In this document: one piece after another, positions 22,262 through 48,309 of the stretch
Layout: each line of letters starts with the position of its first letter
Numbering within the stretch: position 1 is the stretch's first letter
Origin: Dysidea avara
Taxonomy: Eukaryota > Porifera > Demospongiae > Dictyoceratida > Dysideidae
Reading direction: 5' to 3'
DNA: 64,000 bases
Assembly (NCBI RefSeq): GCF_963678975.1
Contig: NC_089285.1
Span: forward strand, 11,642,694-11,706,693
The notes under the pieces: model-generated
Seen by the model: only the letters and a program-made list of their open reading frames with translations
Database searches by the model: none
Told to the model about the DNA's origin: nothing
Program-made: the position numbers and the translations under genes

Positions 22262-23217
22262 TCTTGGTTAGTAATCTTCCAATATTGACTATTGATCTAT
22301 CAATGTTGGTATTATTGTATTAATTTTAAACAATGTTGTAAATTAAAATTCCCACATTGAAAGGGGATTTTACCAATCTTGGTAAACTTGAAACACAGGT
22401 TGGTAAAATGGTCGATAGTAAACTACGATGTTGGAATATTGATCTGCCAATGTTGGTATTGTTGTATTAGTTTTAAGCAATGTTGTAAATTAAAATTCCC
22501 AAATTGGAAGGGGATTTTACCAACCTTGGTAAACTTGAAACACAGATTGGAGAAATGGTCAACAGTAAACTACAATGTTGAAATATTGATTTGTCAATGT
22601 TGGTATTATTGTATTGGTTTTAAACAATGATGTAAATTAAAATTCCCACATTGGAAGGGGATTTTACCAACCTTGGTAAACTTGAAACACAGATTGGTAA
22701 AATGGTCGACAGTCAACTCAGAGATGCCAACCTCTGAACAATTTTAGGAGTGAGACCTTAAACACTACCAGCAGTGTGGACCAGATTCAAGTGCAGCTCC
22801 AGGATTTTTGGTAGTGAAGACCAAAAAAAAAAAAAAAAAAAGGTCGTCACATGTTCTCAGTCCAAAAATAAGCACAGGTCTGCCCAATTTTAAGCACAGG
22901 GCTAATTACGAAGCAGATCAGGCGTGAGAACTAAGCTGAAAGAGTGAGAAACAGAGGGTTAGGCGTGAGAGCGTGAGATTACTAGCCAAAGAGTGAGACT
23001 CATGCCTAATGCGTGAGAGTTGGCATGTCTGGTCAACTACAATGTTGGAATAGTGATCTGTCAATATTGGTATTATTGTATTGGCTTTAAACAATGTTGT
23101 AAATTAAAAATTCCCACATTGGAAGGGGATTTTACCAACCTTGGTAAACTTGAAACACAGATTGGTACAATGGTAAACAGTAAACTACAATGTTGGAATA
23201 TTGATCTGTCAATGTTG
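22262..23217. repeat. Tandem array, unit about 150 bp, with TTTACCAACCTTGGTAAA dyad
   Basis: About four and a half copies spaced near 150 bp (the CAATGTTGGTATT landmark recurs near 22298, 22448 and 22597, and again after the MITE). Each unit contains a perfect dyad with 8-base arms, TTTACCAA and TTGGTAAA, and the block AAATTCCCACATTGGAAGG. A hAT MITE (22719-23031) interrupts it, and the IS3EU-like element has inserted at its right end. Confidence 0.85.
22719..23031. mobile_element. hAT-type MITE
   Basis: Inverted ends CAGAGATGCCAAC and CAGACATGCCAAC, with GTCAACT duplicated on both sides (22712-22718 and 23032-23038). It is 313 bp, non-coding, and contains an A-rich run near 22825. CAG termini and a 7 to 8-bp duplication point to hAT. 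Confidence 0.8.
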
Positions 23218-23223
23218 GTATTG

Positions 23224-23354
23224 TATGGTAGGCCATTTGTTTCAAAATGATTATTTGATATGTTCAATGAAATATTTGATATGTTCAATGAATTATTTGA
23301 TATGTTCAATGAATTATTTGATATGTTCAATGAATTATTTGATATGTTCAATGA
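23224..23354. repeat. Left terminal inverted repeat with five 21-bp subterminal repeats
   Basis: About 26 bp of unique terminus, then five tandem copies containing TATTTGATATGTTCAAT. It is the reverse complement of the right end. The preceding GTATTG (23218-23223) is the target duplication. Confidence 0.9.
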
Positions 23355-23419
23355 GCTATGCCATCATTACGCATAGCTACGTATATAGCTTTGTTATTAC
23401 TCAGCACTTCATTGCTACT

Positions 23420-23939
23420 CAGAGTTGGGGGTAACTAGCTATTAACAAGGTTACATAACTAGTTACTTTAAAAAAGTAACTAGTAATTTAACTATAGTTA
23501 CTTGCTTTGTAAATAGTAACCTGTAACTGGTTACGACTTCCTGAAAAGTAACTAACTTACAGTACAATATTAGCTTGCAACAGTTACATTGTAATTATAG
23601 GTAATTATGCTTTAAAAGCAAGAGCTACACTTTCTGTGTACTGTTCTTCATGATTCAGCTTGAGTATACAGGCGTAACAGTTGAAACTGAGCTGAAATGG
23701 CTGCAGAATCATTATTTTTATAAAGTGTGCAATTATTATATAAGATTATAGTTCTCTTCTCCCTTGCTCTGGGCAAAATAATCATATCACAAAAGTTAAC
23801 AAACAAGCGTAACTTATATATGAAAGTAACTAGTAACTAGATATTTAGTTACATTTTAAAAATAACTACAACTGTAACTAAGTTACATGGGATAAACATA
23901 ACTAGTAACAAGTTTTCTGAAGTAACTACCCCAACTCTG
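23420..23939. mobile_element. hAT-type MITE of the GTAACT-rich family, inside the IS3EU-like element
   Basis: Inverted ends CAGAGTTGGGGGTAACTA and CAGAGTTGGGGTAGTTAC, with a perfect 8-bp duplication TTGCTACT at 23412-23419 and 23940-23947. It is 520 bp, filled with GTAACTAGT-type motifs and non-coding. It postdates the element it sits in. Confidence 0.88.
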
Positions 23940-24230
23940 TTGCTACTACAGTAGTACTAGTGGTTTTGGGTGCACAAATTATTTTTCAGAAGTCTTGATC
24001 AAAACCATTGCAACCCCTGTATCAGCTACTGACTAGTTTTCAGAAGAATTGGGAAGTATAGTTTTAAATAACAGCATGTGTGTACTTAGATGGCTTCTAA
24101 TTCTCACTACTCTGAGGTGTAGACATTATAGGCACTTTCTACTTGTAGTCAACAAACATGCTTGTTTAACAGTTGTTATGCAAATTATTGATCGGTATTG
24201 ATATCAGTTCTTGCATGAAGTGTACTGATA

Positions 24231-24610
24231 GTATGTTCACGTTGAGCTGAACCCTGAAAAACAGCTAAAAATTAAAAGTGGATTTTTTCTCAAAAGATTT
24301 AACATTTCAACCAACCAGATGATTATTGGTAACAGCAAAGGTGTTAACAACAGACACGTACAGTTTGGATCCATTACAAGTTCGGGAAAGGGCTATAATG
24401 GACACTGTACTTATATGGCTTCCCCATAGGAAATGTATTGTGAAATTTTTGATTGGCCGTAAATATTATGTAAAACATTTGAACAACAAGATTTTAAAAT
24501 ATTTTTAGCGGGTCAAGCAGTACTACAAATGAGCCAAATTTCAAGATCGTGTATAACTGCATCTGTGAGTTATTAAATGTTTTTGAGGATTCAGCTCAAC
24601 GTGAACATAC
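24231..24610. mobile_element. Tc1/mariner-type MITE inside the IS3EU-like element
   Basis: 380 bp with near-perfect inverted ends GTATGTTCACGTTGAGCTGA (about 30 bp long), flanked by TA on both sides. It lies just upstream of the transposase gene and may have displaced that gene's 5' exon or promoter. A 60-codon open frame inside matches nothing I know. Confidence 0.75.
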
Positions 24611-24766
24611 TATATATTGTATATGTGGGATAGAAACTGCCATAGTATCCAGTCATGCACCAATCCAATTTTCAGTACATCTTTAAAGATACAGCATAAA
24701 ATCTTATTTAGTTGTATACAGTCAGTTCTACTGTACCCTGTTTACAACATCATTGTATTTGCACAG

Positions 24767-26485
24767 ATGACTGAGATGCTGAGGAAGATCGGTCTGTTGC
24801 ACCTTGCAGGGAATTTTGAGCAGGAGAAAGTGAGAATTTATGCATTATAAAACATTATGCTCCTGTACATTCCTATAGGTGACACCAATGCTTGTACCGA
24901 GTTTAACAGATAAACAACTAACAGACTTGGGTGTCACTGCAATTGGTGACAAAGCCATGTTAAGAGCAGCTGGTTTTTGTCATCCTCAATATATTGAATG
25001 TAAGTATTATAGCTATATAATAAATCAAAAAAATAACATTTTATTGCATGCATTCTACCTTATATAGGGCATTTCAGAAAACTACTAGATCATCTTACCA
25101 TGTCACATGATGATGCCAGTCAAAATCTAGAGGATATCGAGGCTGCTATTGATGTGTTGGATTTTATCACTGATCAATGTCCAAGGGAATTCCAAATTAG
25201 TCATCTGAATCGCCTACGATCCCGTTTTCTATCACTGCATCAACAGCTGGCAATGCAGTCAGGTACCTGTACCTCTCTGGCTGTTGGATTAGTAGATTCT
25301 TCAGCAGAATCACATTCAACAGGAAGACCTAAGCTTTGTGTGAACTTGGAATTGGTTGAAGTGTTACATTCAGCTGGATTTAAGATACAGGAAATAGCCA
25401 GTTCATTGCTAATCAGTAGGGTGACCTTATGGAGGAGACTAAAAGAAGAAGATATAACACTGTCGAGATATTCAGGGATGTCTGACCATGAGCTAGATGA
25501 CATTGTTAGAGAAATCAAAAGCAGGCATCCTTTCAGTGGCTTTGGTTTAATATATGGTACTATTAAGAGTAGAGGGGTTACTATCCAGCGATACCGACTA
25601 CGTGACAGCATAAGAAGGGTTGATCCAATTAGAACAAGTGCTAGATTGAACCAGGCTGTTCAAAGGAGAAAATACAGTGTGCCAGGGCCTAATGCACTCT
25701 GGCACATTGACGGTAATCACAGCCTAATCCGCTGGCGATTTGTTATTCATGGAGGGGTTGATGGCTTTTCACGTATGATAACCTATCTACATTGTTCGAC
25801 AAACAACAGAAGTCACACTGTCTATGAATTGTTTGTTCATGCTGTTGAATGCAATGGATGCCCATCTCGTGTCAGGTCAGACAAAGGTGTTGAAAATGGA
25901 GAAGTATATGTATACATGGTAACCACACGTGGAACTGGTAGGCATAGTCACATAGCTGGTTCATCAACTCATAACCAGAGGATAGAGAGGATGTGGAGAG
26001 ATGTTTTCAGGTGTGTATTGTCTACATTTTATGCACTGTTTTATCACTTGGAAGACCAAAGGATCCTTGATCCCTTGTCAGATATCGATTTGTTTGTTTC
26101 GCACATAGTATTTTTGTCACGAATAAACCATTGTCTTAAAGAATTCAGGGAAAGCTGGAATAATCACCCAATGAGAAATGAAAGAAATTGGTCACCCAGG
26201 AAGATTTGGCTTAATGGCATTATAAATCCAAACAATGCTGGACAAACTGCTGTGCAGGACTGTGAAGTAAACCCTGACATATTTGGTGTTGATGATGATG
26301 GCCCACTTGGTTTAGAGCTTGACCCAAATGAAGAAGCTGTAATTGTGCCAGAAACATTGTCTCCTATTAATGAAGATCAATTGACTGAATTTGTTGACCA
26401 AATAGATCCTTTAGGTGACTGCGATGACTTTGGTTTTGAGAAATATAGTGAAGCACGTCAGTTGTTACATAGAATTATTCAGTAA
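24767..26485 (+). CDS. SAM-domain integrase-type (D,D34E) transposase of the IS3EU-like element
   Basis: Three exons: 24767-24829, 24879-24999 and 25068-26485, with introns of 49 and 68 bp in phase. Exons 1 and 2 encode a SAM domain (MTEMLRKIGLLHLAGNFEQ, then LTDKQLTDLGVTAIGDKAML). Exon 3 has a helical segment, a helix-turn-helix (IQEIASSLLISRVTLWRRL), then the integrase core: WHIDGNHSL, VRSDKGVENG and HNQRIERMWRD. Counting from the exon-3 ATG at 25100, the catalytic residues are D204, D261 and E296, giving D-x56-D-x34-E, as in IS3 and retroviral integrases. The C-terminal tail is acidic. A further 5' exon may exist, because the ATG follows a GCACAG acceptor-like site, as it does in the HECT gene. 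The frame is intact throughout. Strand transfer and end cleavage are the expected activities. Confidence 0.85.
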
Positions 26486-26615
26486 AATTTATAATGTTGC
26501 AGTGCACATGTTTATTTTGTATTGTGAAAGTTTAAAACAAAACATATCCTAATATTCCAATTTGCACAAAAAATACTAACAGAATTATGTTTACTGAGTA
26601 CTACTGATTCATGTA
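26486..26615. other. Tail-to-tail gap between the two transposon genes
   Basis: 130 bp of AT-rich sequence separates the convergent stops. Polyadenylation-like AT-rich sequence is present on both strands, but no distinct motif was assigned. Confidence 0.6.
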
Positions 26616-29600
26616 TTAAATCATAGTGTATGATCTTCTTGTATTTGGTATCAGTGCTTTTAGAGCACAACTAAATATCTGGTAATCATGTACTGATAAT
26701 GGTATAGTGAGCTTCATAAAGCACGTAGATGCTGCAATATTAGATGAGCTGTCGAACTCCACCTGTATCCTCTTCCTGACAATCTGCCTTCCTCCAGTTA
26801 TGTATTTGAGAAAATCTACTAATTCTGTATAATAAAGTAAAGTGAAATAACAATGACAACAACATACAGTATGTATATAATTATGCAGTAGTGCATATTG
26901 CAGTGCTTCAAGTATGGTATACCGCCGGTATTTCTATAAATATAAGCTGTGAGAAATTTTCACAAGTGAAATTTTTGTGTTAAAAATTTTCACCGGTGTC
27001 CTCAAGCAATGACAATTTTTTAACAATGAATTATGTAGTTTTAAAATTATCTGTCCTTTTTGTATAATAGCAGAATAACAAGCAGTGAAACTTAAGTGTG
27101 GCATCTCCATTCCATGGAGGCTGCACCCTGAGAGTTGTCCACCGGTCACAGTTGTATACCATTTGTACTACTCTGACCTGATGGAGAACATGACTCAATA
27201 AATTCAGAAAGCATTGAAATAACTCTGGATTCTTCATCGGTAGGGTTCCTTGGCAGAATCAATGCATCCCAAAACATTTCAGCAGTAAGCTCTTCAATTT
27301 CACTGTACACAAAATACTCTTCAAACAGGTTAGGAAAACACTTGATTATATCTAAGAGCCCAAGAGTAGAGAGACCACTGGAAAGTTGAAAAAACACTGC
27401 AGCTCTCTTAGAAATAGTGTCGTGTAAAATAATGTCTTGTATTAGGGCTGCCTTAGTATCAAACTATAAAGGTATTAGTATACTGCTGAGTACAATATAT
27501 CAGACTCAGTAACAACACTTACTGTAATCATGCGCCTTGTTCCAATTTCACTAATCAGATGATCAAATTGAGAGGTTGAAGTGACCCTTTCAAATCCTTC
27601 CTCTGTGTTTTTCTTTTGCAGCTATATGCATAAAGACAAAACCACTATCTATAACACACGAAGTGGCCAGTTCTCGAGGCTCAAAAAAAGTTTTAAGTAC
27701 CATCTATGACTAAGCGTATACCATTCATGGTTTTTGTCATTGATATAATGGTGCCTGCACACTGTTAATATAGAAGTGGTCATAACACACCAGCACAGGT
27801 GTAATATTACTGTCCAAACTGGCACATCTTTACAAGTGTAGTATGCACACCACATCAATCACACTAATAAGAGTGTGACCACAAGTTTACAAATGACAAA
27901 AAGCACTTAGGAGTGGGAGGCATGTCATGACAAGCTATTATCAAAGTCAACTACTAATTTCAGTACTATTTGTGAAATACTGCATCATCTACAGTTTTGC
28001 AATTGGTATTACAATCCTGGAATGTCAACAATCTACAAACAATGTGTCAGTCAGCAATTTACCTACTTTATAACATCTCTACTTAAACATTGTTTTCAAA
28101 ATGTATTAAAAACCTATATCACCAAGCATGGAGTTTCATTGTGGGTTTTAAATTTCACTCAACCAAGGCTTACATGTTCTACAGTACGATATGTACTGGC
28201 CCCTCTGATCATTAGTCTACAGTATTGTTATCCCTTTACCGTTGTTTACATTCTGATGTCTGATGACATAATTGATGTATTTTATTTAGCAATGAGCCAA
28301 TGGAAATTAATTTTGTTGATACAAACATATATACCAGCTTTGTGCATTGATCTGAACTGCCTGTGTGTAATGGCTTAGCACAAAATGAGTTTATTGTCAC
28401 AATTATATTTTAAATACATAAATTCAATGAAATTGATACTTTGTGATCCTTCTTACAACCCCTCAATGATAAAGGATGCCACAAAATACCTCTTTTAAAC
28501 ACTGGAATCATCTATAATGGCAGAGAATAGCTTTTCATGTATAAATATTGGTGTCATACACACCAATGTACAGTTACACTGCTTGTCTTATGTGCTTTAC
28601 ACACCATATCCTGAAAGTGTGACTGCACCCCAAGGGTGTGCTGCTGTTTAAGTGTGCTATGACCACCTGAGTTTTAACAGTGCATGAAGTTCACTGAAGA
28701 ACACAGCTCCTAATGGGCTATATGGGTATCACAAAATGGCAACTCGGGCCTTGCAGACTACTAGAAATTGCATATCCCTTCGTATCAAAAGGGGATGCAA
28801 CCATAATGTGATAATTAATGAATTACAAAATAATTAATGAGTTACAAAATGCAATTGCTGTGTGCATTTAACACCAAAGCAAAATAAATTACCATAGAAG
28901 TTTGATTTGGTACTAACTGGGTGCCTGGTTTTTAGACGTAGCATAGCATCAACTTGCTTTTCTTTAATGTTTAAATACCAAATGTAGGAATCACTCCAAA
29001 AGTAGCAAGTACCACCTAAAATGCTGCCTTTGAAAATCAGATCTTATGCAATGAAAATCACCTTTACCGGATAACATTAGTCTATCTAACATCTAACATC
29101 AATACAGTGTTAAAACAAGAAAACACTTAAAGACAGCTGGATATTCAATTCTAAAAAAATCGCCAGAACCCAAAATTTCAGCTGCCTGCCAGATCAGTTA
29201 CAAGGCTAGAGGCTAAATGAAGCAGTGCATGAATACCATTTTACATCATAACAATAAACTCAGTGCTTTTTGTGGTTCCGACATGTGTGTACCCTCTGCA
29301 CCATATCTTCCTTTTATTTTCAATCAAGCTGTTCTTATTTTCTTAATGCATTTAAACCATATCAAGGTGCTAATTTTCTGCATCAACACTTTCTTTGAGC
29401 AAATTTAGATGCCACAATATTATTTAAAGCACTTGCGCTACTGTAGAGGTGCTGGACACCCGTAGATACCTGTAACTTCATGACAGATTGACGAATAGAG
29501 GTTGAGCACACATACACCATACCTCATAGCAATCTATTCACTCAAACATGATGACCATACCACTTATTGGTCTGGCTGTATTATAATGACCACACCTCTT

Positions 29601-32484
29601 GATAGAGGCTGACTCTAATACAGCAGTAACCCTAATAGAACAGTCACATGTGTATAGCTGTATACTATAACAAAAAGCTAGGATTAATCTAGGGGGAGGT
29701 GGGGCACAGGCCCCCCTGGGTTAGCTATTTCCCCCCCTAGGTTTATACCTAAACTTTGAGAAATGGAAAGGTTTAATTAATCCCAAAGTTGCATAATCAA
29801 ATGGTCAATATTTAATGGCATCACAGTAAAATTTCACCAAATTGTGTAATTTATACCTAAATTTTCTTTTTTTTTCTTCCTGGGGGAGCATGCCCCCAGA
29901 CCCCCCTAGAATCCGAAGTGGCTTACTTCGTTTGAAGTTATTAATACTGTGTAAAACAAACTTACCATTTCCACAATTGCTAAAGCATCAACAGACAAAT
30001 CATCATTGGTAACATAAGAGAGTGCAAGCTCCTCTGACCCTGTTGCCAGATACCAGTATACATAAGGAGCAAGGTATGGGAAGCCAGGGCCTTCTTGTAC
30101 TAGTGAATGTACAATTAGAACACCCAAAATTCTGAATAGTGGTAATAATTGAGGGCTGTAAGTAGGGCGCAGGCAGTGTTTATCACCCATGAACATTGAA
30201 TGGGGATCCTTAAATGCAATTTCATCCAGCACATCTGTAAAAAACTGCCTTCTAATACCACCAGTATCAAGCCCAGGCTGATTTATATAGGAAACACGTA
30301 ATGGTCGGGATGGATCAAAGGTAACAGCTTTATAAAACAACAGAGCGTCATTTAACAAATCATCTTCATCAACTCTTACTTTCATTGGAGGACCATTCAT
30401 CTTCTGTTGTAACAATGAGAGGATCTTCTGAGAATCAATGTCCAGCAAAATGTTTATAGTTTTCTCATTGTTCATTGATGACAGCCCTTGGATCACATCA
30501 ATTGCATGTTTGGAGAAAGTAGGAAACATCTCATAAATTGCTGAGAGATCAAAACCATTCTCATATGTGCTAACAGAATCAAGAACCGGAGTAGGTGATG
30601 CACGAGCAATACTTGGGCCTGGAAAACTCTCAAGACTGTTGCTCAGTGGTATCAGCAATGGTCTAGTTGTTGGCATTAATCCAGATCTTTGCACCAATTG
30701 TGGTGTTGACATTGATCCAGGTCTTTGTGTTGATACTGATTCTGGTCTGTGCACTGATTGTGTTGACATTGATCTGGGTCCTTGTACTGGCGTTGAAACT
30801 GATCTTGGTCTTTGTACTATTGATATTGGTGGTGTCGACACTGGTTTTCGTGTTGACATTGGCCCTGGCATTGATACTAGTCCTGGTGTTTCCAGTAACT
30901 CATCATCATCATCATTTCCTTGTCACTTTCATCAGGACGGTCATCATTGTCATCATTCACTACCGCATCCCGCTTCAGTCGAACATATAAATCTCCTTGA
31001 CCACACAAATGCTTCACTGCAGTGCCTGACCAAGTAAAATCTGGTGCCGTCTGAGACACTCGACATATTCTCCCAACACATTTGATGAACTTGATATCTT
31101 GAGGTGAGCAATGAGAGAGATCAACTTCAGGAGAAGTGGAGGAGCTGGTGATGACATTGCATATGTTATCAAGAATTTCTGTTTCAGTAGAGTTCAAATC
31201 AAACTGTACCATCCCATTCAAAATAATGTACTTATCTAACCGTGAGAATTCTGATAAATTATCAGAGCCCATGTGCTTAAAAACAATCAAGTTTTTGCAA
31301 ATGCTGTGACGGCGCTTGGCACTTGTAAAAGTCAGTACTGTTGACTTGTGCTTTCCTTTCTTGGTAGGAGGAACAACACCTAATTCAAATTTGGGTCTAC
31401 AGCCCATCACCCCCCTGGCTTCTTGTATGGCAGTTAGTTGGCGGCTGGTGTTACCTATCAACAATCATAAAAGCACAATTTAACATTAAAACAGTTCAGC
31501 TAGCCTGAAGCTTAAAACCTCTTGAACTATATATACCTCTAGAAACTTGACAAGCTGCTCTCAACATGGCTTTGTCACCTATTGTGGTGACACCCAAGTC
31601 TGTTAATTGTGCATCAGTTAAATTTGGTACGAGCTTTGGTGTTACCTGCAGGAATGAAGAGGAACATCATTTTAAATACATAACAATTTACATTCTCACT
31701 TTTTCCCGCTCAAAGTTCCTAGCAAGTTGCATTAACCCAACTTCCCTCAGCACCTGAGCCATCTGCATAATATACAGTATATAATCATTACCGGCTATAA
31801 TATTACTGGGTTAACTATGGGTAAGGTCAGTGCTAGCTACTATATGAATAAGTCTCTGTTGGACATGCGTTGCTTTTGCTAGAATTCTTCAGTGATATAG
31901 GAGTGTTTATCCACTGTGAAAAACATTAGTAACAATGCATGTTTGTTGCTATTTTAAAAATGCATGACCCCTCAGTAACTGGAATTTAGTTAGCACTGCA
32001 ATCCACAAAGTTATGCAATTTGTTTTTAATGGCTTATGTATCTGAAAACCTTGTAAATATCAAATTATCTGATTGACATGGTATAATGTTATTGTTTTAG
32101 CTATAGCTTGCTAGCTACCTCAGAAATAATCTGGCCGCTGGGTTGCCGTGGTATTGCTGAGGCCGCGTGAGCTGGATGGCTGTGGCAGGCAGCGAATTTT
32201 ACACCCGACATGCCAGTAGGTCATCCCAGCCATGTTATTCACCAATCCTAGACCATGAGACCGTACACCTGCATGCATGCACTCCGAGCGGATGCACTCG
32301 GCACTGAGCATGTGTGACAACGTGTTAATTCATCCGACTTAGCTAGCTGCCGTAAATCAGGTAGTATAGTGAACAGATTACGCTGCCAACTGAATATGTA
32401 TGCACACATACAAAACCTCACCTCAGCTTGCTCACCATCCATCGTCTTAAATTTAAAGTACTGAGCAACTATAGCAGAACGCAC
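26616..32484 (-). CDS. SAM-domain HECT-type E3 ubiquitin ligase encoded by the IS3EU-like element
   Basis: Exons read by frame and splice sites: 32484-32422 (MRSAIVAQYFKFKTMDGEQAE), 31762-31700 and 31645-31537 (SAM domain, LTDAQLTDLGVTTIGDKAML), 31454-29966, 27621-27523, 27463-27178 and 26824-26616. The long exon has an unnamed domain (FDLNSTETEILDNIC, CGQGDLYVRLK), a serine/proline/threonine repeat tract (PGPMST-like) and the HECT N-lobe (DPSRPLRVSYINQPGLDTGG, GVLIVHSLVQEGPGFP). The last exon has the C-lobe (TGGRQIVRKRIQVEF) with the catalytic cysteine in STCFMKLTIP (codon 26721-26723). All junctions keep phase. One apparent 1-base frame change lies at about 30905-30925. HECT ligases take ubiquitin from E2 onto this cysteine. 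Why a transposon would encode one is unknown; stabilising or clearing a host or element protein is a guess. Confidence 0.75.
27750..28690. repeat. Long imperfect inverted repeat in a HECT intron
   Basis: Sequence near 27757-27810 (CACACTGTTAATATAG, GTGGTCATAACACACCAGCAC) is matched in reverse complement near 28635-28690 (CACTGTTAAAACTCAGGTGG, TCATAGCACAC). The spacer is about 800 bp. It may be an old fold-back element that inflated this 2.3-kb intron. The rest of the intron, 28690-29690, shows no clear feature. Confidence 0.4.
29690..29910. repeat. Fold-back element with CTAGGGGG ends, in a HECT intron
   Basis: Inverted C/G-rich ends: CTAGGGGGAGGTGGGGCA on the left and, in reverse complement, CTAGGGGGGTCTGGGGGCA on the right. 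A single related arm occurs at 43151-43200 (CTAGGGGGTCTGAGGGCATG), so this is a dispersed family. The right end lies about 55 bp from the donor site of the long HECT exon. Confidence 0.65.
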
Positions 32485-32650
32485 TGCTGTGTTATTGTAC
32501 TAGGCTTTCTCTCACTCTCACTACTCTTGATCAGCCTGTCCAATATCACTACCAACTAGATTGCTCTGATTGTGATAACGATACCAACCAAAAAAATATT
32601 TTATTATTGCTACGCAAAAATAAAATTTACAAAAATAAAACACTAAAATT

Positions 32651-32860
32651 GAATATATCAAATAATTCATTGAATATACCAAATAATTCATTGAACATAT
32701 CAAATAATTCATTGAACATATCAAATAATTCATTGAACATATCAAATAATTCATTGAACATATCAAATAATTCATTGAACATATCAAATAATTCATTGAA
32801 CATATCAAATAATTCATTGAACATATCAAATAATCATTTTGAAACAAATGGCCTACCATA
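32651..32860. repeat. Right terminal inverted repeat with nine 21-bp subterminal repeats
   Basis: Nine tandem copies (reverse complement of TATTTGATATGTTCAAT units), ending in the 26-bp unique terminus and followed by GTATTG at 32861-32866. The two innermost copies are the most diverged. Confidence 0.9.
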
Positions 32861-32999
32861 GTATTGTTTTGCTACAGTAAGTGATATCGTAATTCAAACA
32901 CAAACATGTAATAGTAATAACTGAACAGTAGATTTAATTTGTGCAATATGTAAGTAACTGTACTATAAAACTAAGAGGTTGATCTGTTTAACAAAAACT

Positions 33000-47195: not shown

Positions 47196-47564
47196 AGTAC
47201 AATTCACATCACACATGATTATTATTTACTGTATACTTGTGTAACATCATTAGTATTTCATTATTAACATAGCATCAAGCATAAGAATGGATAAATTATA
47301 ACAATGTATTGTGTAACAGCTCATTTACAATTTTATTTCTGCTTGTGGGAATGTCTCTTTGAGAAAAATTTAATACCAATCCCTCTGCTAGGCATCGAGC
47401 ATACAAGCAAACAAACACACCACAGTCATAAGAAGTAGACTGTCTTGGAACACTCTCCTCCTCCTTGATAAAATACGAATGGCCACTTGCCTGGTCCAAA
47501 AACTGCTTCACAGCCTTCAAACATGTGTGATTTTGCTTTGATTGTGATTTCACAGAGCAATCAA

Positions 47565-47745
47565 CATTTACCGGATGTGCTGGAGAAGAAACGACAGCTA
47601 ATGGCCGTACTAGAGAACAATCAACATCTAATGGACGTGCTGGAGAAGAATCAACAACTAATGGCTGGACCGGAGCACAATCAACATTTATTGGATGTGG
47701 TAGAAGAGAATCATCAGGTGCCGATTGTGCCAGTGGAGTATCTAC
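47565..47745 (-). repeat. Coding 36-bp minisatellite in the P-type transposase gene
   Basis: About five 36-bp units containing CAATCAACATTT or close variants, encoding 12-residue repeats between the transposase domain and the Ulp1-like tail. Confidence 0.75.
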
Positions 47746-48309
47746 AGTTTCAGGATGTAGTAAAGAAGAACCTTTATAATCATTTTCCTTAGCAAGTGTT
47801 TTCTTTCTGTTTCTGCGACGCTTTGGTAATGGTTTGGTATCTTGCATATCAATTTGCTGCTTCCTGCCACGGCAATTTCCCTTAGATATGTTTCCACACA
47901 CTGAGTTGATGATTCGTAATGCTTGCGTATTTTTACAAAACTGAAAAGCATTGGGATTTTCTCCAGCTCTTCCTCTCTGCCTTTGACATCCAAAAAAGTT
48001 CTCGAGCGGATCCTGTGAGATCCGCTCACTCAGAAAGAACTTAACTCCAGGTATCTGTAAGATGTACTTCACCAACTCGACAAATGATTTAACTGAGTGG
48101 ACAAATGCATGCATTGTTACTTTATGAATTTATTTGAAAAAAATTACCTGTCACATCTATTCCATCACGAGTTTCTTTGGCCAATAGCATCGTTCCCTTA
48201 GCTTGTGGAGTATAACCTATCCTTTTTTGCACACTTTCTTCCCAACTCTTCAAGTATGGCATGAACTCATCAGTGAGCCACTACATATAACATAAACCAG
48301 AATGGACAG

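Follow-up and report, generated by a model that had tools for sequence, protein, structure and literature searches.

A two-gene IS3EU-like transposon of the sponge Dysidea avara: a transposase and a HECT ubiquitin ligase with a common SAM domain

A transposase is generally regarded as the only protein that most eukaryotic cut-and-paste transposons require. In the accessible part of PMC10045372, the IS3EU and GingerRoot elements are described as having TA..TA ends, usually with 6-bp target duplications, and an IS3/IS481-like DDE transposase without the HHCC finger. The fungal IS3EU elements, according to the accessible part of PMC12730594, have terminal inverted repeats (TIRs) of more than 30 bp ending in TAYGG..CCRTA, make 6-bp duplications and carry accessory genes for a TET/JBP dioxygenase and an alpha-kinase, the accessory gene being oriented opposite to the transposase; TET/JBP is thought to aid the escape from silencing by methylation. 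The main texts of PMC10045372 and PMC12730594 mention neither HECT nor ubiquitin. A search of the open-access PMC literature, with Repbase entries outside its scope, found no paper that joins HECT with IS3EU. A coelacanth paper picked up by word search was rejected, its subject being a retroviral integrase and its main text being without HECT.

The element described here lies in a stretch of 64,000 nucleotides of Dysidea avara DNA, the window. It is like IS3EU and GingerRoot in its TA..TA ends, its 6-bp duplication and its IS3/IS481-like DDE transposase, for which no H2C2 (HHCC) finger was found among the Pfam matches. With the fungal elements it has in common the long TIR, the TAYGG..CCRTA ends, the 6-bp duplication and an accessory gene of opposite orientation. 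Unlike the IS3EU elements in the accessible part of PMC10045372, it carries a HECT gene, and its transposase bears a SAM domain. The original prediction had placed it in IS3EU, and the termini, which read TATGG..CCATA, the 6-bp duplication, the inverted repeat of more than 30 bp and the DD34E rva_4 core support this assignment, by features that do not tell IS3EU and GingerRoot apart.

Positions 23224-32860 of the window are a bounded DNA transposon with two spliced convergent genes inside. The features are as follows.

23218..23223, no strand: left target-site duplication GTATTG
23224..23271, +: left inverted terminus, perfect over 48 bp
23246..23354, +: left array of subterminal repeats, 5.2 copies of a 21-bp unit
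24230..24611, no strand: nested insertion with 22-bp inverted ends
24764..24974, +: SAM-coding stretch of transposase gene, inverted repeat of 31550-31765
24767..24829, +: transposase exon 1, first part of SAM
24879..24999, +: transposase exon 2, second part of SAM
25068..26485, +: transposase exon 3, encoding the rva_4 DDE core (D276, D333, E368) and an HTH-like region
26616..26824, -: final exon of HECT gene, encoding the C-lobe and its catalytic-type cysteine (STC)
27178..27463, -: HECT gene exon, later N-lobe part
27523..27621, -: HECT gene exon
29966..30922, -: HECT gene exon, linker, CUE-like segment and N-lobe
30923..31454, -: HECT gene exon, homologue-based prediction of a ubiquitin-like (beta-grasp) domain
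31537..31645, -: HECT gene exon 2, second part of SAM
31550..31765, -: SAM-coding stretch of HECT gene, inverted repeat of 24764-24974
31700..31762, -: HECT gene exon 1, first part of SAM
32648..32838, -: right array of subterminal repeats, 9.1 copies of a 21-bp unit
32813..32860, -: right inverted terminus, perfect over 48 bp
32861..32866, no strand: right target-site duplication GTATTG

The inverted termini and the exact GTATTG duplication outside them are thus as originally predicted. The end 20-mer is exact at 23224-23243 (+) and 32841-32860 (-), with 0 occurrences expected by chance (100 shuffles, even allowing 3 mismatches). The element had been taken for a 9.6-kb unit with both ends; the ends are confirmed, but the window copy is shorter than the two other uninterrupted close copies, which measure 12,045 and 11,953 bp, and is therefore a shortened form. 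About 2 kb of its left arm is missing, and the nested insertion is private to it: the three other close copies lack about 376 bp of 24230..24611. No empty site was found in the window, where the left flank but not the right has further matches, these lying in a 147-bp minisatellite.

In the genome, where all counts are lower bounds, the end 20-mer (up to 2 mismatches) occurs at least 53 times forward and 50 times reverse, and the reversed control 0 and 0 times. All four close copies of the transposase, that of the window included, lie between the same ends and each has a close HECT copy. This bears out the claim of one unit whose two genes move together, and contradicts the idea of integrase copies with other termini or never with the HECT gene. 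Exact 6-bp duplications, differing in sequence, flank three of the four, as a search for other copies had been expected to find. Of the four close copies, three have an open transposase frame, while all have an interrupted HECT frame with the gene model used, which implies that an intact ligase is not needed in each copy; recent activity, which had been called plausible, is thus supported by the transposase frames but not by those of the ligase. The dN/dS of the young copies, about 0.25 to 2.3, is uninformative because of the few changes. The 6-bp duplication is exact in 10/14 end pairs, window counted, and in 10/15 further end pairs of the window type or of the related TATGGTGTGCC type. We rejected the possibility that all same-ended elements are one transposon, as ten of the 14 end pairs show no transposase or HECT match among those listed. 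These ten elements match the ends of the element over stretches of 150-300 bp, except C2c, which has no such stretch above 150 bp among the matches listed; C2b has one short internal match, and among the matches listed the ten have a common core among themselves.

The splice sites of both genes are our reading of the sequence, and some frame breaks are perhaps assembly errors. On the plus strand, three exons join into an open transposase of 533 aa, with 34 residues between D333 and E368 (DD34E). In the Pfam scan it matches rva_4 at E 1.6e-79 and rve at E 3.7e-6, the latter below cut-off, and has HTH-like matches. The D/D/E triad is invariant in 22 aligned sequences, the window and 21 of the 120 relatives listed from 899 matches. 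Among viral contigs, one scan confirmed no transposase relative. The 14 control genomes gave 0 matches for rva_4 and 0 for HECT as well, and are therefore uninformative here; probably no eukaryote is among them.

The ligase gene consists of seven exon pieces on the minus strand, between 31762 and 26616, and runs convergently to the transposase. Both spliced genes are therefore present in the arrangement originally described, the transposase with an intact frame, but the ligase frame is broken near the 3' end of exon 30923..31454. The order of its domains is SAM, ubiquitin-like, CUE and HECT (N-lobe, C-lobe). The open C-terminal part matches Pfam HECT PF00632 with 33 bits (cut-off 23.9) and E 6.6e-8. 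A model of the homologue P0123, covering part of the N-lobe, gave weak but consistent fold matches to the HECT domains of WWP2, HUWE1 and E6AP. The best of these matches was a HECT domain at E 3.7e-4, the sole one below 0.001. A low-depth model of the ligase homologue was weak, as were its matches, and the usable model came from a deeper alignment. CUE was seen in 8 of 31 aligned sequences (ligase homologues and window-family members), and Pfam HECT was reached at E 0.01 by only one of the 31 in the homologue alignment, most of them pieces that lack the C-lobe. The catalytic cysteine is kept in 14 of the 16 C-lobes of paired loci and replaced by tyrosine in two. Judged by N-lobe, C-lobe and cysteine, the gene encodes a HECT E3 ligase, with predicted activity.

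The pairing is also found beyond the window family. A second bounded family, at C12:3647955-3689387, has a TIR beginning TATGGTGTGCC, the target duplication GTGGAG, a transposase 46% identical to that of the window and a convergent HECT gene. HECT-coding sequence lies within 12 kb of 31/67 transposase loci, where 0.31 would be expected from uniform placement; 19 of these pairs are convergent and 12 are not, and at 36/67 loci no HECT piece was found within 12 kb. The transposases of the 16 paired loci have identities as low as 38%. For these loci the transposase and ligase trees appear broadly congruent: both contain the same three groups, and inside two of these the branching order differs. 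The Mantel r on all 16 loci, 0.92, is inflated by near-duplicates, and we therefore used the dereplicated values, r 0.53 and p 0.0003 for 11 loci. Stricter dereplication weakens the congruence (8 loci, r 0.40, p 0.02), and the test on only five loci gave 11/120 permutations. It seems that the ligase has travelled and diversified together with the transposase. Among the homologues, the HECT/transposase pairs P0127/P0054 and P0150/P0089 have equal longest-contig figures, 2,033,260 and 5,077,361, which suggests that the members of each pair are on common contigs, at a distance that these figures do not imply.

Both proteins of the window element carry a SAM domain, and each of the two SAM frames is open. 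That of the transposase reaches 22.1 bits with SAM_2 (cut-off 20.5) and 22.2 with SAM_1, just under the cut-off of 23; that of the ligase reaches 26.9 with SAM_1 and 25.9 with SAM_2 (same cut-offs). The two coding stretches are 78.6% identical over 220 columns, first intron included, and the duplication begins 3 bp upstream of the start codon. The transposase SAM has 39/52 residues in common with the window-family ligase SAM, whereas with those of the ligases in two other families it shares only 17-26 of 50-51; in these two families SAM was found on the ligase and not on the transposase. The pair is held under purifying selection (dN 0.127, dS 0.67, dN/dS about 0.19; Fisher p 4.8e-5). The transposase SAM of the window family is apparently an inverted duplication of the first two exons of the ligase gene, and the two outgroup families suggest that the copying went from ligase to transposase. 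Neither the SAM on both proteins nor the genome-wide HECT pairing was part of the original prediction.

The boundaries, gene content, copies, cross-family pairing, conserved cysteine and the SAM-coding inverted repeat under purifying selection are rather probably explained by an IS3EU-superfamily transposon with a two-gene set, a transposase and a co-inherited HECT ligase, in which the transposase gained its SAM from the ligase and the two are tethered by it. The DD34E transposase would act on the TATGG..CCATA ends, cut the target with a 6-bp stagger and probably bind at the 21-bp subterminal repeats. Uptake of the ligase gene would predate the divergence of the families present in this genome, ligase and transposase having been passed on together from then on; in the window family, the inverted duplication would then have given the transposase its SAM. 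The two SAM domains may bind each other, which would place the ligase next to the transposase at the element ends. What it modifies there could be the transposase itself, the strand-transfer complex, or a host protein of chromatin or of silencing. The ligase may act in trans, so that single copies would tolerate its loss. More tentatively, an animal IS3EU lineage may have retained a ubiquitin ligase as an operating component of its transposition machinery, with the transposase of the window family taking over the ligase SAM. Through their matched SAM domains the two proteins would polymerise or pair on the subterminal repeats, and the ligase would regulate the turnover of the transposase or clear host proteins from the ends.

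The ligase could instead serve counter-defence by degrading a silencing protein of the host, with the transposase SAM serving only for oligomerisation or carried along with shared 5' sequence. The fungal IS3EU elements, with their alpha-kinase genes and a TET/JBP thought to be anti-silencing (PMC12730594, accessible part), lend this some weight, and since the SAM duplication includes the first intron and the 3 bp before the start codon it was perhaps kept for expression at first; the dN/dS of the SAM pair favours a role of the protein, however, and we regard this explanation as unlikely, though not far-fetched. It is doubtful that the HECT gene rides along as a passenger, having been captured a single time from the host and decaying slowly since, without any part in transposition. 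The broken frames in all four close copies, the 36 loci where HECT was undetected and the ten same-ended elements that survive without it would fit, but a useless gene should not last across such divergence: the cysteine is kept in 14 of 16 loci though the transposases are down to 38% identical, ligase and transposase co-diverge, and the ligase SAM seems to have been duplicated into the transposase and maintained there by selection. A chance neighbourhood of a transposase element and separate HECT repeats, both being repeated in the genome, is hardly conceivable and was rejected, with 31 of 67 loci paired against 0.31 expected, 19 of them convergently, and with the two genes enclosed by one end pair, flanked by exact 6-bp duplications, at three of the four close copies and again in the second family.

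If the two-gene reading is true, a ligase that diversified in step with the transposase and donated a contact domain to it would bring ubiquitin control into animal transposition, and transposase and ligase would be a natural two-protein pair. Transposon-borne ligases could also account for some of the multi-copy HECT genes of invertebrate genomes. If the ligase is a working part of transposition, numerous animal genes that bear the name G2/M-phase specific E3 ubiquitin ligase would belong to transposons.

The accessory gene sets the window element apart from the fungal IS3EU elements, a ubiquitin ligase here as compared to TET/JBP or an alpha-kinase there. A coral homologue of the ligase, P0139, is named G2/M-phase specific E3 ubiquitin ligase by its source, and this name may be an annotation of transposon genes. 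Vertebrate G2E3 carries PHD/RING fingers before the HECT domain, and such fingers were not found in the Pfam scans of the window ligase pieces. In RAG1, a ligase-type RING is part of the protein itself. RAG1-RAG2, two cooperating proteins proposed in the accessible part of PMC4411706 to stem from one transposon, differs from the window element in its transposase superfamily, and the HECT ligase of the sponge element is a separate protein.

The genome searched comprised 550.8 Mb in 108 contigs (named here by C numbers), and the window lies at C14:11642694-11706693. The surroundings are rich in transposons, as would suit an animal genome; Pfam matches included piggyBac-type and Mutator-like transposase pieces and a gypsy-type integrase, and BEL/Pao-like and additional gypsy-like frames were judged by eye from translations. 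The original prediction of one bounded unit proved to be real, with exact ends and the same six bases on both sides, and its IS3EU-type assignment was borne out: the unit is an IS3EU-type transposon. It had also proposed a search for other copies, and those found on C15 and C4 contain both genes between different exact 6-bp flanks. The element and its close copies are as follows:

Window 23224-32860: inverted termini TATGGTAGGCCATTTGTTTC (from 23224; in inverted form from 32860), perfect over 48 bp altogether
Outside both ends of the window element: target duplication GTATTG, exact
Subterminal, one per end, in opposite orientation: tandem arrays, unit length 21 bp, with 5.2 copies on the left and 9.1 on the right
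Window 24230-24611: nested insertion, about 380 bp long and bounded by inverted ends of 22 bp, not in the three other close copies
C15:435211-447255: close copy, 12,045 bp, complete, exact duplication GAGCTG
C4:5671839-5683791: close copy, 11,953 bp, complete, exact duplication TGCGGT
C7:33614272-33652689: close copy, 38.4 kb, both ends present, flanks without matching duplication

A 147-bp minisatellite (window 22290-23223) adjoins the element, its units repeating as far as the insertion point.

The gene on the plus strand is spliced to give a 533-aa protein with a SAM domain, an HTH-like region and an rva_4 integrase core (E 1.6e-79), in that order. The catalytic residues are D276, D333 and E368, the latter two separated by 34 residues, and this D/D/E is invariant in all 22 aligned transposases (the window's and 21 of 120 relatives among the matches listed). 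The gene on the minus strand encodes a SAM domain, a predicted ubiquitin-like fold, a CUE-like segment and a HECT domain (Pfam E 6.6e-8), and its C-lobe carries an active-site-type cysteine, in the motif STC. Pfam CUE was found in 8 of 31 aligned ligase sequences, and Pfam HECT at E 0.01 was reached by only one of the 31. The ubiquitin-like fold was predicted in a structure model of the homologue P0123, where residues 61-170 had ten-residue means of 89 to 98 pLDDT. The best matches of this model to known structures were HECT domains (best E 3.7e-4), with low TM-scores because the model holds only part of the N-lobe; Ras-association and ubiquitin-type folds came further down the list. A coral relative of the ligase is annotated in its source as G2/M-phase specific E3 ubiquitin ligase. 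A single open frame at window 47299-48129 (minus strand) combines the C-terminal part of a TNP-like RNase H (5.9e-9), of the P-element/THAP9 type, with a Ulp1-type protease domain (1.4e-9); here, too, a transposon in the window carries a gene related to ubiquitin-like modification.

Four transposase loci in the genome had a main match at least 97% identical, and the HECT search gave close copies (96-100%) at those same four loci. About 2 kb of left arm common to the other three is missing from the window copy, whose arm is 2.2 kb shorter there than that of C4 and 2.8 kb shorter than that of C15. In the C7 copy about 28 kb, including inserted sequence, lie between the two genes. Three copies have an open transposase frame, the window copy (as originally claimed), C15 and C7; that of C4 is broken. 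None of the four has an uninterrupted ligase frame: the window copy shows a frame break, C15 an in-frame stop, C4 an indel and C7 several lesions. Given such damage in every one of these young copies, the ligase either works in trans, supplied by other copies or families whose frame is open, or is now disappearing in the window family.

The two genes are also connected by their SAM domains, which have 39 of 52 residues in common. The coding DNA matches in inverted orientation (78.6% over 220 columns), with the first intron within the match. Compared with the ligase SAMs of two other families, those of the window element agree at 17 to 26 of 50 or 51 residues. In the families of L038 (on C12) and L037, another paired locus, the ligase bears a SAM split at a similar place. 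Near the transposase the search gave no SAM, in L038 over the whole stretch from the element's left end to the transposase and in L037, where the element ends were not located, over about 7 kb upstream of it. Since the SAM occurs there by the ligase only, it is most likely that the transposase acquired it from the ligase gene within the window lineage. At the paired loci L039-L041 a SAM was found on neither gene. The pair has a dN of 0.127 against a dS of 0.67 (Fisher p 4.8e-5), which shows that selection has maintained it. The transposase P0002 (71% identical) retains GHFR, the residues with which the exon 3 region of the window's transposase opens, and P0003 (54% identical) does not, which would place the fusion between their branchings.

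The transposase probably recognises the ends with their arrays and inserts them into target DNA by cuts staggered by 6 bp; the 6 bp are observed and the chemistry is taken from the family. The ligase, produced by the same element, would be recruited through contact between the two SAM domains, and may ubiquitylate the transposase, its complex or a host factor as putative substrate.

The pairing of transposase and HECT genes is old. A second family at C12:3647955-3689387 has termini TATGGTGTGCC.. and duplication GTGGAG. Its transposase, 46% identical to that of the window element, is convergent with a HECT gene; between the two lies another HECT C-lobe, which is partly broken (L038:3338-3525). 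The arrangement is convergent at all five distant loci L037-L041, which were selected for a HECT gene nearby. In an unselected count, merging same-strand matches with gaps below 5 kb, 90 transposase matches gave 67 loci and 165 HECT matches (43 from one search, 122 from another) gave 107. A HECT piece lay within 12 kb of 31 of the 67, where uniform placement would predict 0.31. The closest piece was convergent in 19, tandem in 7 and divergent in 5; within 6 kb there were 25 (19 convergent, 6 tandem). The close C7 copy falls outside these 31. No HECT piece was detected within 12 kb of the other 36, both searches being lower bounds. From the HECT side, with a single query, a transposase match lay within 12 kb at 19 of 40 loci and at 21 there was none. 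At C4:35118457-35135410 and C11:14321354-14330780 one transposase lies between two HECT C-lobe pieces that are inverted with respect to each other, which looks as though in these families the ligase belonged to a long inverted repeat.

Among 16 paired loci, picked for having both genes, C-lobe and transposase distances correlated with r 0.92, which is too high because of near-duplicates; after dereplication r was 0.53 for 11 loci (p 0.0003) and 0.40 for 8 (p 0.02). Both trees contain the groups {window, L038, L037/L081/L082}, {L074/L075, L076-L078, L079} and {L039, L040, L041}, the latter two with low support in the short C-lobe tree (0.46 and 0.28) and with a branching inside them that differs from one tree to the other. 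The catalytic cysteine is kept in 14 of the 16 C-lobes, the two exceptions being sister copies with tyrosine. This co-divergence and conservation fit a ligase acquired once, early, and then inherited jointly with the transposase.

End pairs were chosen by eye from listed 20-mer matches, and the counts cover the listed places. Ten of 14 pairs had neither a transposase nor a HECT match inside, among the genome matches listed, and make up a non-autonomous group with the ends and arrays of the window element. Its existence suggests that the transposon proteins act in trans, and the shared arrays would mark the cis-acting part. Exact 6-bp duplications flanked 10 of the 14 and 10 of 15 further pairs (20 of 29), and eight of the 15 carry related TATGGTGTGCC ends. 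The flanks are identical in the same-ended elements C6a and C6b and nearly so in C3a and C3c, so each couple is probably a single insertion, later duplicated. At C1:64836205-64836278 the terminal 20-mer occurs twice, facing, within 74 bp, perhaps a leftover of internal deletion or of excision. A HECT gene lies inside TATGGTGTGCC-type ends with an exact 6-bp duplication at C14:1071120-1079035, and another near a TATGGTGTGCC-type end, the one end seen, at C4:44777778-44785989; neither has a transposase inside among the matches listed.

In open-access papers, Repbase and subscription papers lying outside the search, we found none joining IS3EU with HECT, none on HECT domain, SAM domain, integrase and transposon, and none on sterile alpha motif, DNA transposon and transposase. 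Two open-access papers, on a fungal plant pathogen and on water-buffalo mastitis, contain both IS3EU and ubiquitin. HECT and ubiquitin are absent from the main texts of PMC10045372 and PMC12730594. The hallmarks of IS3EU, as described in the former, are TA..TA ends and usually 6-bp duplications. Fungal members, according to the latter, carry TET/JBP and alpha-kinase genes, the alpha-kinase opposite to the transposase, whereas the accessory gene of the window element is a HECT ligase. What is new here is a standing ligase partner of an IS3EU-type transposase and also, as it seems, a SAM domain handed from the ligase to the transposase.
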